Shown here piece by piece: positions 1-13,531 of a stretch of DNA of 60,539 nt; positions within the stretch are counted from its first letter, which is position 1, and every line of letters begins with the position of its first letter. The notes beneath the pieces are model-generated. The model did not search any database and was not told the DNA's origin. It saw only the letters and a list, made by a program, of their open reading frames with translations. This DNA is from Anaerolineae bacterium (GTDB lineage Bacteria > Chloroflexota > Anaerolineae > UBA4142 > SHND01), in the NCBI GenBank assembly GCA_021463195.1, contig JAJTXZ010000023.1, positions 1 through 60,539 on the forward strand. Direction: 5' to 3'. Both the position numbers and the translations under genes were made by a program.

Positions 1-97
1 TCATTTCGAATGCAATGAGAAATCTCGTTTGACGCGCAAGGTCGAGATTTCTCGCCTCCGCTCGAAATGACAGTTTGCGCGACTTTGTGCCAGCCCT
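1..97. repeat. Hairpin repeat, right part of a MITE-like element
   Basis: Two nested inverted repeats are visible: TCATTTCGA (1-9) with TCGAAATGA (62-70), and GAGAAATCTCG (17-27) with CGAGATTTCTC (43-53). The stretch after it (71-97) resembles the right end of the element at 12381-12510: both read tgaca, then GCGCGACTTTG, then a variant of the terminal AGCCCT/GCGCCCT. The left end would lie outside the window. Its relation to the complete copy is inferred from this partial match. Confidence 0.5.
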
Positions 98-117
98 ACA
101 GTTGCCGCGGGGGCCTA

Positions 118-146
118 TTGCGCGACCATGATAGAATTTATATAAT
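118..146 (+). promoter_or_regulatory. Sigma70-like promoter of the STAS gene
   Basis: TTGCGC at 118-123 and a perfect TATAAT at 141-146 are separated by 17 nt. They lie about 100 nt upstream of the STAS start codon and point at it. Confidence 0.6.
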
Positions 147-8009: not shown

Positions 8010-8452
8010 ACACAGATGTTTTCTTGATTCAATTTGCTTTTCACTACGATACACGCCAAGCGGTCAACGCCGAATTTCTGGCGCAAGTGGAGACGGCAGA
8101 ACCTGCCATTACGGTTTATAACTTGATGGAGCTCTTGGGACAATTATCGTTCAACACGGCTCCTTCAAAACTGGATGATTGGCGCGAATGGTTTGTCGAA
8201 GTGTACAACTTGAGCGTTATCGCGCCGGTGAATCTGGACGATGAAATTGCAGCTGTGCCTTTCAAGCGTACCTTATTTGATGAGCCGTATGCCAAGATGC
8301 GCGCGCATCGAATGGGGTACATGGACGCGCTGGCATTAAATCTGGCAGAACAAACTCCCGACGTTACAAGTTTCGTCACATGGAATGCCAAGCATTTCAA
8401 AAATAAAACGACGCTGGCGGTTTATACGCCTCAAGAATATCTCGCGCGTTAA
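7997..8452 (+). CDS. PIN-domain ribonuclease toxin
   Basis: A 151-residue PIN-domain protein (VapC-like fold), a Mg-dependent endoribonuclease in known family members. The N-terminal MVVIDTDVFLI supplies the first aspartates, YNLMELLGQL the conserved glutamate, and GYMDALALNLAEQ with the late WNAKHFKN the C-terminal acidic site and typical T/WN motif. It overlaps the antitoxin by 13 nt, so the two are co-translated. Its stop codon overlaps the stop of the convergent mini-ORF R3 within TTAA (8449-8452). A truncated paralogue lies at 7301-7432. The RNA target is unknown. Confidence 0.88.
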   Translation: MVVIDTDVFLIQFAFHYDTRQAVNAEFLAQVETAEPAITVYNLMELLGQLSFNTAPSKLDDWREWFVEVYNLSVIAPVNLDDEIAAVPFKRTLFDEPYAKMRAHRMGYMDALALNLAEQTPDVTSFVTWNAKHFKNKTTLAVYTPQEYLAR

Positions 8453-8673
8453 TTCAACTCCATCCACGCTTTCAAAACCGATTTCACCCCTGCGGGCGCT
8501 TGCACTGCCTTCAAGTACGTCGCTTTGATGTGCGCTTCCACCTTTTTTCGCAATGCGGTCAACGTCTCGTCGCTCAAGACGCTTGGCATCTCGCCCGCGC
8601 ATTGGGCGCGGAGAAAATCAAGAATGTCGAGATTGTGAATGTGGCGAATGTGGGATTCGGAGCGGGTGGGCAT
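8449..8673 (-). CDS. Mini-ORF R3: 74-residue methyltransferase-start/helicase-end chimera
   Basis: An intact frame with AGGA before the ATG. Residues 1-24 (MPTRSESHIRHIHNLDILDF and on) correspond to the methyltransferase N-terminus with one residue lost in LETLFDF. Residues about 31-74, starting SVLSDETLTALRKKVEAHIK and ending AWMELN, match the last 44 residues of the helicase with few changes. Its open frame suggests either recent origin or retained function. It could be a leftover of a tandem helicase-methyltransferase array or a small protein that binds the partner of either domain. No function is claimed. Confidence 0.5.
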   Translation of the reverse strand: MPTRSESHIRHIHNLDILDFLRAQCAGEMPSVLSDETLTALRKKVEAHIKATYLKAVQAPAGVKSVLKAWMELN

Positions 8674-8690
8674 TATTTTTCCTAGAGTGA

Positions 8691-8718
8691 TTGACAACGA
8701 ATACTTTTCGATTAGAAT
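8691..8718 (+). promoter_or_regulatory. Sigma70-like promoter of the DUF2283 gene
   Basis: TTGACA (8691-8696), 16 nt, TAGAAT (8713-8718), ending 20 nt before the ATG at 8738. Confidence 0.6.
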
Positions 8719-8737
8719 TTCATGCCGACTCGACAAT

Positions 8738-9124
8738 ATGACAGATTCGGAGAAACTGTCCATCCATTCGTACGACCAAGAGACAGATGTTTTGTATATT
8801 TCGTTCGCGCCCGGCGAGCAAGCTAGCGCGGCGGTCGAATTGAACGACAATATCTTGTTGCGTTTTAATCGCGACGAGCAGCGCGCCGTTGGTCTGACGT
8901 TCATGGATTTTTCGGTTCTCGCGCAGTGGACCGTGTTAGGACCCCGCAGTTTTCCCTTGTCGGGTCTCCAGGAATTAGAACCCGAATGGCAAGACGAGGT
9001 GATAAAAATTATTACCTCACCCCCCGTCAATCAAATTTTGCGCGTCTCGGCATATGCGCCCTCTGCGGTGGAATTGATTCCCATCGCCTCTGTCGAGCAT
9101 CCTCAGCAACTCGTTACCGCTTAA
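8738..9124 (+). CDS. DUF2283-domain protein
   Basis: A 128-residue protein. The segment YDQETDVLYISFAPG, followed by a short loop, then NILLRFNRDEQRAVGLTFMDFS, is the DUF2283 pattern. These small proteins often sit beside toxin genes and are commonly suspected to be antitoxin-like, but no activity is established. The ATG at 8738 lies 20 nt after a strong promoter; no clear ribosome binding site is present. It is the third plus-strand cassette in the array, and no toxin follows. Its stop codon overlaps the helicase stop codon in TTAA (9121-9124), exactly as the two PIN genes overlap R2 and R3. Confidence 0.75.
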   Translation: MTDSEKLSIHSYDQETDVLYISFAPGEQASAAVELNDNILLRFNRDEQRAVGLTFMDFSVLAQWTVLGPRSFPLSGLQELEPEWQDEVIKIITSPPVNQILRVSAYAPSAVELIPIASVEHPQQLVTA

Positions 9125-12100
9125 TTCAACTCCATCCACGCTTTCAAAACCGGTTTCACCCCCGCGGGCGCTTGCGCCGCTTTCAAGTACGTCGCCTTGA
9201 TGTGCGCTTCCACTTTTTTCCGCGATGCCGTCAACGTCTCGTCGCTTAACACGCTGCGGCGCGGCGTTTCGGGCGTCGAACGAATCAACGCTTCCATCGC
9301 GAACGCATCCTCTGAAATTTCCTCGCTCGCCACATCGAGCAAATACCACTGCGTCCGTCCGCTTGCGCCGTCCCATTCGTTCGTTTCCAAATTTTTCGCG
9401 GGCAGTTGATACGAAAAAAAGACCGCTTGCTTGCCGGCGTGCGGATGCGCGCGCGCGGAAAAAACGCGCAAGGGAAATTTCGCGAGGCGCGCTTCTAAAT
9501 CGGGATGCGCGGCGAGCAAGTCGCGATAGGCGAGCCGCAATGATTCCTCTTGCGAAGGCAAGCCCTCGTATGCTTCGTTAAATTCCTTGAGCGCGTCGTA
9601 ATCGTCTTGTGGCGTCAAAAGTTTTTTGCCTTCGATGCCAAACGCTTTGGAAATCCGCAGCGTCTTGCGCGCGACGCGTTCGTACAACGACAACAATTCT
9701 TCCAATTCCGTCGGCGGCAAAAAATTCCAATAGTACACCGTGCCGCGTACATTTTTGTAAGCGGGATGGTCGTGTATCATCCGCGCTTCGGTGGCAGAGT
9801 CGAGACGGCGGTCCACGCGCCCGATGCGCTGCATCAAGCGCACCGGATTCCAATGCAAATCGTAATTGATGAGCAGCGTCGCGTCCTGCAAGTTCAAGCC
9901 TTCGGACAAAACATCGGTTGAAATCAAGACGCGCGTTTCCGCGCGCCCCTGCGCGGCGAGTTCGGCGCTGGAGGATTCGTTATAGTACGGCGAAAATTCG
10001 GTAATGATTTCGCCGCGGTCGCGGTGGCTGCCGCTGTCCACCTGAGCGAGCGGCGCGATGCCCGCGTGTTCCAGTTGGCGTTTCAAATAGCGCGCCGTCG
10101 CCATGTATTCGGTAAAAATCAAAACCTTGTGCCGGCTCAACAATGGATGTGTTGTGAGCAGCCCAATCAACGTTTGCAGTTTGTCATCGCGCTCGGGCGA
10201 AAAATCTTGGAGTTCGTTCAAAAAGAGGACGAGTTGATTCAAATCTTCAAAGGTGTCATTCAGAATTTCCTTAATTTTGTATTCGCCGCGCGACAATTCT
10301 TCCGCCGCGTCCAAAAATTCTGTTGGAATAAAATCTTCGTCCGCTTCCTCATCCGTAGCGCCGCTCAAAGCGCTGCGGTGACTGGCGATGGCGCGCAATA
10401 AAGCATCATGTTCCGCTTGCCATGTTTCCAAACGTTCTTGTTCGGCGTCCGTCGCGCTGTTGGCGTTGGCGAACGCCAAGAGCCGCAAAAGCAAATCTTC
10501 GGCGGTGGATTGGAACGCGCGCGCGGAACTTTCAAAACGTTTCAAGAGTTGCACGCGAATCAAACCGACAACTTGGTTCTGGCGATTCGCCGTCCATTTT
10601 TCGTCCGCCGTTTCCAATTCCTTTTTACGATACGCAATGGGGTTGTACATTGCCAACGCGAGCAATGGTTTATGTTTGCGAAAAGCGGAATCAATTTGCT
10701 GGAGCAGCGAACCATACGTGCGCGCCATAGAATAATTGGCGACTTGCGGCGGCTGGCGTTCGGGAAAAATCACGGGCGCGCCGCCGCGCTCCAACGAACT
10801 CGCGCGCGCATACGCGCGGCTGCGCTGCACGACGATTTCACGAAAGAGCGGGTCTTGCTTGAGCAGCTGTTCCGCCTCATCGCTCGTAATCTCGACGACA
10901 TCATCCGCGTCGCCGACGAGCGCGCGCACCGCGTTTTCCAATTTGCGAAAATGTCCGGGCAAGGAATGGATGCCAATGTCCCGAAAATGGTCGCTTTGCC
11001 GCTGCGTAAAGAGTTCGATGAGATGCTGCAAGTCGAGCAAACTGTTGTTGATGGGCGTCGCCGTCAAAAGATACAACGTTTTGCCTTGCGCGAGCTCGAA
11101 CAATTTTTTGTACGTTTTCGCCGCGCGATTGCGAAAATGATGCGCCTCGTCAATTATGATGACATCTTTTTTGGCGATTCGGTTAATCCGTTTGGTATAA
11201 TCACCGCCACGCAACAAATCGGTGTGATTGTAAATCCACAAACCGCTATCATCTTCCAACGCGTCAGGCAAAAAGCGTTCGAGTTTCGCGCGCCAGACGG
11301 GATGATTCGCCGCTCTTGGCGTGAGCAGCACAACCTTTTTTCCTTCGCGCAACAATCGCGCAATCAACATCATCCCGATAAATGTTTTGCCCAAGCCCAC
11401 GCTGTCCGCCAATAGCGCGCCGCGATAGCGCCCGCCGCGTTTGAGCAGCGCGTGATAGCCCTCTTTTTGATAATGGTCGAGCGCGCCGTACATCGCGGAA
11501 TTTTTTTCCCATTCTTCGGGCGTCAACTCGTGTCCTCGAAAATATTCGGACAACGCTTTGACGTACACCTCGAACGGCGAGTATTCGCGCACATGCTTTT
11601 CAATCACCCGCGTAATTTCGGGCGTCACATCCTCGGCGTCATTCCAATATTTTTCGTACCACGCTTGCAAGAGTTCCACTTCGCTCCGCAAGCGCACATT
11701 CAATTCGATATTTTCGGTCAGCCCCGGACGCGTGAAATTGCTCGAGCCGACGAGCGCGGTGGAACCCATCACCTCGAATTTTGAATGAGTGATATACGCT
11801 TTGGCGTGAAACTTGCGCTCGCGGTACACCTTGCAAATAATTTTTCCCGATTGGAGCGCGGCGACGATGGCGGGGACGCCGCGTAAAAAATCATCGCGCT
11901 CTTTTTCGTTTTCCAGACTCGCGTCGAGCTTCATTTCGATTTCGCTCAACGCGCGACGAAAGGCGTCCTGCGTGCGCTTGCTCACTTCATCGCCCATGAG
12001 AATGCGAATGTTTTCCAACTTTTGCCAATGTCCATCGAGCGCGAGCAGCGCGCCGATTTCAAAATAACCGGTGGCAATGTCAAAGGCGCGCGCGATTTCG

Positions 12101-12294
12101 CACCATTCGCGCAAATAGTTTTCGCCTTTCCAATGTTCATCGCTATTGTCAACGATAAATAGTTCGCCGGCGCGCGGTTGTGGTTTGCGAATGGGTTGGG
12201 TTGGGGTATCGGAGCGCGCGCCTTGTATCTCCGGCGGCGCGATATTTGAAAGCGAGGGTTGGGTGGCAGAGGGCTTTGTTTTTTTTCGAGGCAT
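9121..12294 (-). CDS. PLD-nuclease/SNF2-type helicase
   Basis: A 1057-residue protein. Residues about 45-215 form a phospholipase D-like domain with HAK (163-165) and GSSNFT (183-188), the HxK...GSSN half-site used by BfiI-type nucleases. An SNF2/superfamily 2 helicase follows: ADSVGLGKT (296-304, Walker A), DEAH (382-385), TATP (411-414), and in the C-terminal lobe SEGLNLQDA and QRIGRVDR. The last 44 residues (SVLSDETL to AWMELN) are the module copied in R1-R3. It is probably an ATP-dependent DNA-translocating nuclease acting with the downstream methyltransferase. That role is inferred from the domain pairing. Confidence 0.87.
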   Translation of the reverse strand: MPRKKTKPSATQPSLSNIAPPEIQGARSDTPTQPIRKPQPRAGELFIVDNSDEHWKGENYLREWCEIARAFDIATGYFEIGALLALDGHWQKLENIRILMGDEVSKRTQDAFRRALSEIEMKLDASLENEKERDDFLRGVPAIVAALQSGKIICKVYRERKFHAKAYITHSKFEVMGSTALVGSSNFTRPGLTENIELNVRLRSEVELLQAWYEKYWNDAEDVTPEITRVIEKHVREYSPFEVYVKALSEYFRGHELTPEEWEKNSAMYGALDHYQKEGYHALLKRGGRYRGALLADSVGLGKTFIGMMLIARLLREGKKVVLLTPRAANHPVWRAKLERFLPDALEDDSGLWIYNHTDLLRGGDYTKRINRIAKKDVIIIDEAHHFRNRAAKTYKKLFELAQGKTLYLLTATPINNSLLDLQHLIELFTQRQSDHFRDIGIHSLPGHFRKLENAVRALVGDADDVVEITSDEAEQLLKQDPLFREIVVQRSRAYARASSLERGGAPVIFPERQPPQVANYSMARTYGSLLQQIDSAFRKHKPLLALAMYNPIAYRKKELETADEKWTANRQNQVVGLIRVQLLKRFESSARAFQSTAEDLLLRLLAFANANSATDAEQERLETWQAEHDALLRAIASHRSALSGATDEEADEDFIPTEFLDAAEELSRGEYKIKEILNDTFEDLNQLVLFLNELQDFSPERDDKLQTLIGLLTTHPLLSRHKVLIFTEYMATARYLKRQLEHAGIAPLAQVDSGSHRDRGEIITEFSPYYNESSSAELAAQGRAETRVLISTDVLSEGLNLQDATLLINYDLHWNPVRLMQRIGRVDRRLDSATEARMIHDHPAYKNVRGTVYYWNFLPPTELEELLSLYERVARKTLRISKAFGIEGKKLLTPQDDYDALKEFNEAYEGLPSQEESLRLAYRDLLAAHPDLEARLAKFPLRVFSARAHPHAGKQAVFFSYQLPAKNLETNEWDGASGRTQWYLLDVASEEISEDAFAMEALIRSTPETPRRSVLSDETLTASRKKVEAHIKATYLKAAQAPAGVKPVLKAWMELN

Positions 12295-12369
12295 CGGACG
12301 CGTTACTCCAAAATTATTGTAGACGACGAATCAGCGCGCAAATTGTAACATGCGCGTTGACAAAGCGTC

Positions 12370-12380
12370 AATCGTTTTGG
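12370..12380. repeat. Left target-site duplication of MITE
   Basis: AATCGTTTTGG at 12370-12380 is repeated exactly at 12511-12521, directly outside the inverted-repeat element between them. Confidence 0.75.
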
Positions 12381-12510
12381 GAGGGCGCTGTCAAAATCGG
12401 CTGGCGGACAAATGTCATTGTGAGGGACGAAGCAATCTCGCTGGTCGCGTGGGGGATTGCTTTGCAAGTGCGGCTCGCAATGACACGGTGCGCGACTTTG
12501 ACAGCGCCCT
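12381..12510. mobile_element. 130-bp MITE with terminal inverted repeats
   Basis: The ends are AGGGCGCTGTCAAA (12382-12395) and its exact reverse complement (12497-12510), flanked by an 11-bp direct repeat. Inside, GTCATTGTGAG (12414-12424) pairs with CTCGCAATGAC (12474-12484) with one mismatch, and GAAGCAATC pairs with GATTGCTTT, so the whole element can form a cruciform. There is no room for a transposase, so it must be moved in trans. It lies between the helicase start and the gene at 12665. A related partial copy is at the left edge of the window. Confidence 0.8.
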
Positions 12511-12521
12511 AATCGTTTTGG
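12511..12521. repeat. Right target-site duplication of MITE
   Basis: Exact copy of the AATCGTTTTGG that precedes the element. Confidence 0.75.
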
Positions 12522-12664
12522 CGTTAGCGTTATTTTTTAGCGCGCGCGTTTTTTTTAGACGCGGGCAATTTATGCTAAAGTGTGAACGATTGAAACCCAC
12601 GCTTGCGTTTGTCAAAATGGCAGAGCTGAGATGTTTTGACTGGCGCAAGCAAAGCGAGTTGGAA

Positions 12665-13531
12665 ATGAACCAGATACGTTTTGCGCGCGTCGGCGCAGTG
12701 GCGTTTTTATTCGCGCTGACGCTGATGCTCGGATATGTTCTCGGAGTGATGACTCCCAAGCCCGACGCTTTTGCCGCGCAGGCGAGCGCGACAGCTACGC
12801 CGCTGCCGACGCCGACGCGTGTGCCGGATGACCCGATTCCGCTCAAACCTTTGACGGGGTTGACGGGACTTGCCGCGTCAGTCACATTGGATGTGAACGG
12901 CGAAATCAATGCGCAGCGCGCGCAAGGCACGCTGAACGCGACAGTGATGACGAATCTGAACGATCAAAGTAAAATCACGGTGACGGGCCCTTTGCTGGGC
13001 GATATTGTGGCGCAAGTCGGCGGCGCAGCGGTAAGTCTTTTTTCGCCGTCGCAAGTGGATATTTATAAAGTGCCGCAAGGAACTTTTATCGTCGTCAAGA
13101 GTTTTTTGGATGTGTGCGTAAAACCCGCTGACCCGAACGCGACTGCCGCGACGGATAATCTGAGTCCGCAGACGCTGTTGACCATGTTGACCAGTCCGGA
13201 AGTGGCGCGCGGCAAATTCGTGGGCGAGGAAACGCGCAACGGTATTCAGGTGAAACATTATGTGATTAATGGCGCGGCGTTTTTAGCGGCGGCGCAAAAT
13301 AGTCAGGACCCGAATTTGAAAGAGTTTGCGGCGGCGCTGTGGCAAGCCCAAGACGCGCACGTCTATGTCTCGGCGGAAGGATATCCGGTGGCGTTCGAGG
13401 GCAGTTATAGCGGCGAGTTTGAACCGTTGAAATTCAAAGGCAACTTTGACGTGCGGATTGATTTGACGAGCATCAATCAACCCACGCAGATTGATTTGCC
13501 GCGCGCGTGCAATAATCCGATTACGCCGTAA
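12665..13531 (+). CDS. Exported LppX/LolA-like protein
   Basis: A 288-residue protein with an N-terminal membrane anchor or signal segment (about residues 7-31), a Thr/Pro-rich linker (TATPLPTPTRVPDDP) and a body of alternating beta-strand character. The region around NGIQVKHYVINGAAF and DAHVYVSAEGYPVAFEGSYSG resembles the LppX/LprG/LolA-like fold that binds lipids or other hydrophobic ligands. No lipobox cysteine is seen. The ATG at 12665 is preferred because it starts right at the signal segment; in-frame extension upstream would run into the MITE. Two Cys (VCVKP and RACNN) may form a disulfide. The function is uncertain. Confidence 0.6.
   Translation: MNQIRFARVGAVAFLFALTLMLGYVLGVMTPKPDAFAAQASATATPLPTPTRVPDDPIPLKPLTGLTGLAASVTLDVNGEINAQRAQGTLNATVMTNLNDQSKITVTGPLLGDIVAQVGGAAVSLFSPSQVDIYKVPQGTFIVVKSFLDVCVKPADPNATAATDNLSPQTLLTMLTSPEVARGKFVGEETRNGIQVKHYVINGAAFLAAAQNSQDPNLKEFAAALWQAQDAHVYVSAEGYPVAFEGSYSGEFEPLKFKGNFDVRIDLTSINQPTQIDLPRACNNPITP

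Follow-up and report, generated by a model that had tools for sequence, protein, structure and literature searches.

An ISAs1-family MITE whose relatives lie at a fixed distance upstream of predicted σ70-type promoters

The analyses presented here suggested that a 129-bp element at positions 12382-12510 of the window (the whole stretch of DNA that was analysed, 60,539 nucleotides long) is a non-autonomous MITE of the ISAs1 family that was moved in trans, and that ISAs1 insertion selects DNA just upstream of σ70-type promoters. We placed the probability of this joint reading at about 0.85. The family membership, the ends, the target duplications, and a fixed spacing to predicted promoters could be followed directly in the sequences of the element and its relatives. 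The window copy was probably mobilized in trans, and the insertion site would be found through contact with promoter-bound RNA polymerase or through promoter DNA shape rather than through a base motif at the cut site.

The element was flanked on both sides by AATCGTTTTGG, started with AGGGCGCTGTCAAA at position 12382, and finished with TTTGACAGCGCCCT at position 12510 (Table 1). Its arms reached 18 nucleotides with 94% complementarity, and the two flanking copies (12370-12380 and 12511-12521) were identical at 11 of 11 positions, which bore out the original prediction of an intact MITE with inverted ends and a target duplication. In the window, the exact 13-bp end GGGCGCTGTCAAA was present only at the two ends of this element; when up to two mismatches were allowed, it was present at 8 places versus 3.0 expected. 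The left terminal base was G rather than C or T, and the ends were otherwise of the ISAs1 type (YAGGG...). The element was short (131 bp), multicopy, and without a transposase gene. Because of its inner palindrome, the whole element formed a long hairpin; the predicted RNA fold was a single long hairpin with an energy of -68.6 kcal/mol (z -6.0), and 0 of 200 shuffled sequences folded as low. An Rfam search of window positions 12000-13000 matched no family at E ≤ 0.1. TTGACA-like boxes that pointed outward were seen in the ends of the element. A length of 129 bp from AGGG to CCCT was shared by the window element and the MITEs of loci L117, L118, L119, L125, L126, and L128, despite very different cores.

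Table 1. Coordinates of features in the window
Feature	Position	Strand	Details
Cut copy of MITE-A	1..98		right end GACTTTGTGCCAGCCCT 81-97, terminal base A 98; contig ends inside copy
Predicted promoter beside MITE-A	118..146	+	-35 TTGCGC 118-123, 17-bp spacer, -10 TATAAT 141-146
Helicase gene, SNF2/ResIII-type, PLD-like domain, 1057 aa	9121..12294	-	behind predicted promoter 12342..12371
Predicted σ70-like helicase-gene promoter	12342..12371	-	-35 TTGACG 12371-12366, 18-bp spacer, -10 TACAAT 12347-12342
Left copy of putative 10-bp target duplication ATCGTTTTGG	12371..12380		A 12370 matches too
ISAs1-family MITE including terminal bases	12381..12511		131 bp; AGGG...CCCT = 12382-12510, 129 bp
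Left terminal inverted repeat AGGGCGCTGTCAAAATC	12382..12398	+	inverted-repeat comparison
Inner palindromic core TGTCATTGTGAG ... CTCGCAATGACA	12413..12485		arms 12413-12424 and 12474-12485
Right terminal inverted repeat AGGGCGCTGTCAAAGTC	12494..12510	-	sequence as read on - strand
Right copy of putative 10-bp target duplication ATCGTTTTGG	12512..12521		identity to left copy

The element was located between the leftward helicase gene and a rightward gene (12668-13531) that had no match in a Pfam search and was not assigned to a family. A neighboring reading frame ended in a repeat of the C-terminal helicase sequence (SVLSDETLTA.RKKVEAHIKATYLKA.QAPAGVK.VLKAWMELN) (window positions 8449-9030 and 9121-9260, minus strand).

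The assembly that holds the window (G000; 4.72 Mb in 143 contigs) contained one full-length relative of the element (C4:95-224), which was 78% identical and lacked a matching target duplication. Ends of the GCTGT type, to which the window element belongs, were also present in two further genomes (G001 and G018), in agreement with the expectation that other copies exist. A sister element, MITE-A, had ends AGGGCTGGCACAAAGTC and was also 129 bp in length; of the 45 places in this assembly at which the joint end pattern matched exactly, 43 were MITE-A ends. Among the matches listed (30 loci), 22 of 28 MITE-A ends were located at contig ends. The diverged relative noticed at the left edge of the window was identified as a cut copy of this high-copy sister. 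Intact MITE-A copies were found on contigs C13, C24, and C57, and the target duplication was perfect at C24 and C57 and absent at C13. A third MITE type had like ends but a different core (C13:56109-56225 and C83:39610). At locus L042 (G000:C13:55800-56700), two unlike ISAs1-type MITEs adjoined, separated only by a TCCTGAAAATT-like stretch that recurred beyond the second MITE.

An empty site had been proposed as a check on the insertion, and none was found in five same-genus genomes. The helicase had a match in just one of these five genomes (G001), where the alignment stopped at the start codon and the 3.4-kb helicase locus contained neither such an element pair nor the core. The apparent recency of the window insertion rests solely on its perfect duplication.

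The assignment of the window element to the ISAs1 family as a MITE was well supported by sequence comparisons. Because the intact-MITE pattern with exact ends had just 6 matches, spread over 4 of 20 genomes, the ends were searched singly, and 13 of the 14 related genomes included in that search contained ends of the form AGGGC.....CAAAGTC. A same-genus genome carried a 1285-bp IS (G005:C222:16139-17423) with ends identical to those of MITE-A and a gene for a 405-aa protein. This protein matched the ISAs1 transposase model NF033564 at 242 bits (cutoff, 70), as well as Pfam PF13808 and PF01609; a Mutator model had no match to it at E ≤ 0.001, and its matches were ISAs1 and DDE_Tnp_1. The same protein used as a query had matches in 7 of the 14 genomes searched, and ISAs1-like transposase genes adjoined ends of the same type at G004:C1, G008:C91, G019:C18, G010:C50, and, with one change, G015:C57. 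The suggested transposase gene with the same ends was thus found for MITE-A. No such transposase was found in the genomes searched for GCTGT ends, the type of the window element, and the own assembly had 0 transposase matches to the G005 protein. The G005 and G004 IS copies lacked a target duplication, and the G004 gene had a stop. The window element shares [C/T]AGGG ends and 10-bp duplications with the ISAs1 family (NF033564), in which ends of the form CAGGG.....GCAAAG were seen at loci L278, L279, L284, and L356; the family has a DDE transposase, whereas a transposase gene is absent from the window element.

The original prediction gave the target duplication as 11 bp and called that length unusual. 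The identity of 11 of 11 bases stood, and the length was best read as 10 bp plus one terminal, matching base. Specifically, an extra base (G 12381) was present between the left copy of AATCGTTTTGG and AGGG. The base outside CCCT was invariant in the end types TGGCA (A, 53/53), AACTG (G, 16/16), GCGTG (G, 9/9), and GTGTG (G, 8/8), which indicated that it is part of the element in those types. In other types, including the GCTGT type of the window, this base was mixed (for GCTGT, A in 6, G in 3, and C in 1; n = 10). By analogy with the invariant types, A 12511 was read as the last base of the window element, which would leave a 10-bp duplication and one matching base. Identity over 11 to 12 bp was also found in 6 other MITEs. 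Among ISAs1 insertions in other bacteria (set B, described below), a perfect 10-bp duplication was found in 74 of 109 readable cases, and one more had a 9/10 match; this indicated that 10 bp is the ISAs1 family length and, contrary to what had been claimed, usual in the ISAs1 insertions examined. In 26 of the 74 elements with a perfect 10-bp duplication, the base before the left copy was the same as the last base of the element. A plain 11-bp duplication was dropped in favor of 10 bp plus one base, and the surplus of matching 11th bases is partly unexplained. In the same 74 cases, G preceded the left copy in 29 and C followed the right copy in 33; these preferences were the same as the terminal bases of the element and constituted a weak target preference.

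The spacing between elements and promoters was analysed in two samples. Promoters were predictions made with a crude σ70-like matrix, and only those that scored at least 7 and pointed away from the element were counted. Set A started with 193 distinct ends that matched AGGG[CT]N5CAAA[GA]TC (loci L001-L277 and the window), of which 192 were kept after a similarity filter and 190 had flanks of at least 130 bp; likely chance matches inside genes were kept. The -35 box was located 17 to 19 bp outside the element end, counted with the terminal base included, in 71 of the 190 flanks. Random shifts within each flank gave 4.6 such flanks, with a maximum of 15 in 5000 shifts, and chance was rejected as the source of the spacing. 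When distance was counted from CCCT, 73 of 190 flanks had a -35 start at 18 to 21 with a score of at least 7, and the other 4-wide bins from 24 on held 0 to 4 flanks. A minor class of 11 of 190 flanks had the -35 box at 9 to 12 from CCCT; this near position was not clear in set B. No peak was observed in set A for promoters that pointed at the element.

Similar results were obtained when the two boxes were scored alone. Hexamers of the -35 type occurred at 17, 18, and 19 bp in 9, 22, and 26 flanks of set A, respectively, and most other distances had no more than 4 flanks; hexamers of the -10 type occurred at 40, 41, and 42 bp in 10, 36, and 21 flanks. Both boxes were good in 41 of the 190 flanks, only the -35 box in 16, only the -10 box in 35, and neither in 98; the chance counts were 5.7 good -35 boxes and 8.0 good -10 boxes. 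The 98 flanks with neither box were not surprising because half of the flanks should be on the side of the element opposite the promoter. Flank positions 1 to 10 showed almost no base preference (0.001 to 0.036 bits). Since these positions showed so little preference and a whole promoter was located further in, insertion is probably not guided by a motif at the cut site.

Intact MITEs with a duplication of at least 8/10 behaved in the same way. Fifteen of 25 had a promoter with a score of at least 7 and a -35 box at 16 to 20 bp (the mean for other windows was 0.71), and 2 more, one of which was the window element, had a promoter at the near place only. MITE-A faced a promoter with either end (7 of 24 cases for one end and 6 of 20 for the other).

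Set B was assembled from other bacteria. Five ISAs1 proteins were scanned against genome contigs, and the best 80 of 541 confirmed loci were used; 65 of those best 80 had ends that started with [CT]A[GCA]GG. The 150 loci of this set (L278-L427), which included further copies from the same genomes, yielded 117 distinct insertions, the remainder being duplicates or loci without an end pair, and 108 insertions had both flanks of at least 100 bp. A promoter was present at 17 to 19 bp in 31 of the 108 insertions, versus an average of 1.5 and a maximum of 5 in other 3-wide windows. Counted per flank, the result was 33 of 225 (null, 2.9; maximum, 11). The positives included records titled Syntrophobacteraceae, Clostridiales, Methylobacter, Ktedonospora, a cyanobacterium, and Marinilabilia. 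No promoter reached the score at 17 to 19 bp in 77 of the 108 insertions; weak or non-σ70 promoters and a crude matrix may be partly responsible, and the habit need not span all ISAs1 lineages. IS4-type elements from these genomes served as a control. Of 30 loci, 12 insertions (24 flanks) had clear ends and a duplication of 8 bp or more; this small sample showed no peak, with single promoters at 19, 24, and 47 bp.

The two elements of the window appear to represent both distance classes. The predicted helicase promoter scored 12.9 as a consensus match only, and its -35 box started 9 bp from the element end, which puts the reported element at the rarer position; the first T of this box was the last base of the duplication, such that the two abutted. 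On the right side of the element, no promoter was found at the usual distance. The predicted promoter beside the left-edge MITE-A scored 8.6, again as a consensus match only, and its -35 box started 19 bp from the element end. The C4 relative of the window element belonged to the main distance class, at 19 bp from CCCT.

We propose that an ISAs1 transposase supplied from elsewhere in the cell would bind the MITE ends (YAGGGC.....CAAAGTC) and make a 10-bp staggered cut, the center of which would fall about 13 bp upstream of the -35 box and roughly 50 bp upstream of the transcription start. The 10 bp to be duplicated would usually end 7 to 9 bp before the -35 box and would less often abut it, as in the window. 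Contact with RNA polymerase would be the simplest guide for such insertion. The promoter would be left whole and the gene unbroken, which would allow copies to pile up.

The core palindrome of the window element matched DNA in 22 of 40 relatives. Inner palindromes of the form GTCATxyCGAG...Gy'x'ATC (loci L001-L277; e.g., window positions 12413-12485) were of four kinds with matching arms, and half-cores were compensated in 126 of 132 cases versus 55.5 expected under independence. The core GTCATTGCGAG...CTCGCAATGAC lacked the outer ends in 10 of 15 palindromes in 28 loci (L079-L106), which was REP-like. At locus L114 (G001:C141:2300-3200), a GTCATATCGAG-type palindrome was seemingly inserted in a GTCATTGCGAG-type core, all inside AGGGC-type ends. 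A literature search by core sequence returned nothing on bacterial repeats among the matches listed.

Many MITEs are intergenic because selection removes harmful insertions, and the elements studied here were intergenic in the cases examined. Random insertion, with selection purging all copies except harmless ones upstream of promoters, would account for this location. Under such selection any place upstream of the -35 box would do, yet the peak in set A was 2 to 3 bp wide and the peak in set B was equally sharp; selection alone was rejected for this reason, and we considered it improbable. A further alternative was that the transposase reads the DNA of the -35 box, the -10 box, or both, without RNA polymerase. 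The 16 flanks with a good -35 box and no good -10 box fit this idea, but the 35 flanks with the opposite arrangement and the 41 with both boxes are better explained by whole promoters; DNA reading of this kind seemed rather unlikely.

The outward TTGACA-like boxes in the element ends raised the question of whether the element is a domesticated regulatory part, with its spacing held by selection on gene expression. This explanation was judged very improbable because many MITE-A copies with identical ends (43 exact ends) were located beside different genes of one genome, and because complete IS with a transposase shared the same spacing. The least credible alternative was that a Y1 (RAYT) transposase moves the inner REP-like palindrome as the true mobile unit, with the outer ends being incidental. 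The cores that stood without outer ends and the covariation of the core arms are in line with it, and REP/BIME are imperfect palindromes with compensated arms that the window core resembles. Yet the window core was set inside DDE-type ends with target duplications, which REP/BIME moved by RAYT would lack, the duplications abutted the outer ends rather than the core (the ground on which Y1/REP mobility was rejected), and the third type (C13:56109-56225) combined the outer ends with another core.

If the proposed ISAs1 insertion upstream of promoters is correct, this family, which we found in many phyla, would insert predictably beside promoters, and its insertion sites could be used as a promoter map in uncultured bacteria. 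It would also make the guidance of a DDE transposase by RNA polymerase a testable question and would serve as a warning that spacing between an element and a promoter can be made by insertion rather than by regulation. For the whole family, we considered it slightly better than an even chance that ISAs1 is a third, unrelated lineage of promoter-homing DDE transposases that docks onto RNA polymerase at the promoter, on its upstream face, and thereby places the cut some 50 bp ahead of the transcription start. Such docking would allow ISAs1 MITEs to colonise promoters without breaking genes, and the habit would then have arisen more than once.

No statement on promoter-upstream insertion or target choice for ISAs1 was found in the open-access literature searched; the available sections of PMC3606827, PMC3281130, PMC9208149, PMC10433421, and PMC10969869 contained none on its target choice. 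In the available sections of PMC9208149, an IS survey of complete genomes, ISAs1 was one of the families found in excess between convergent genes, and it was not named alongside ISLre2 and ISKra4 with regard to distance from genes. This excess does not suggest promoter homing and argues against it; the measure is gene orientation and not promoter spacing. Bacterial MITEs in general, as described in the available part of a review (PMC10969869) that does not mention ISAs1 or Chloroflexi there, share with the window element a short length, a lack of coding sequence, inverted ends, duplications, and a hairpin.

Among the closest known systems, those that insert upstream of promoters are described in the available sections of Guerillot et al. 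2014 (PMC3942029), in which ISAs1 does not occur. According to those sections, TnGBS, ISLre2 (p-MULT 3), and part of the ISKra4 group (p-MULT 4) insert upstream of σA promoters, with 15 to 17 bp from the element end to the -35 box. Promoter homing is attributed there to two groups of transposases of the Mutator type and is termed unusual, and contact with RNA polymerase was proposed for TnGBS. As far as those sections go, a fixed distance to a downstream promoter is common to these elements and the ISAs1 elements, and both the ISKra4 group and the ISAs1 elements have similar ends, either of which can face the promoter. In contrast, TnGBS, ISLre2, and ISKra4 have transposases of the Mutator superfamily, whereas the elements studied here belong to ISAs1 (DDE_Tnp_1), with a distance of 17 to 19 bp and a 10-bp duplication. 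The window element is a new member of the known ISAs1 family, and its landing rule is new for ISAs1 in the literature searched.
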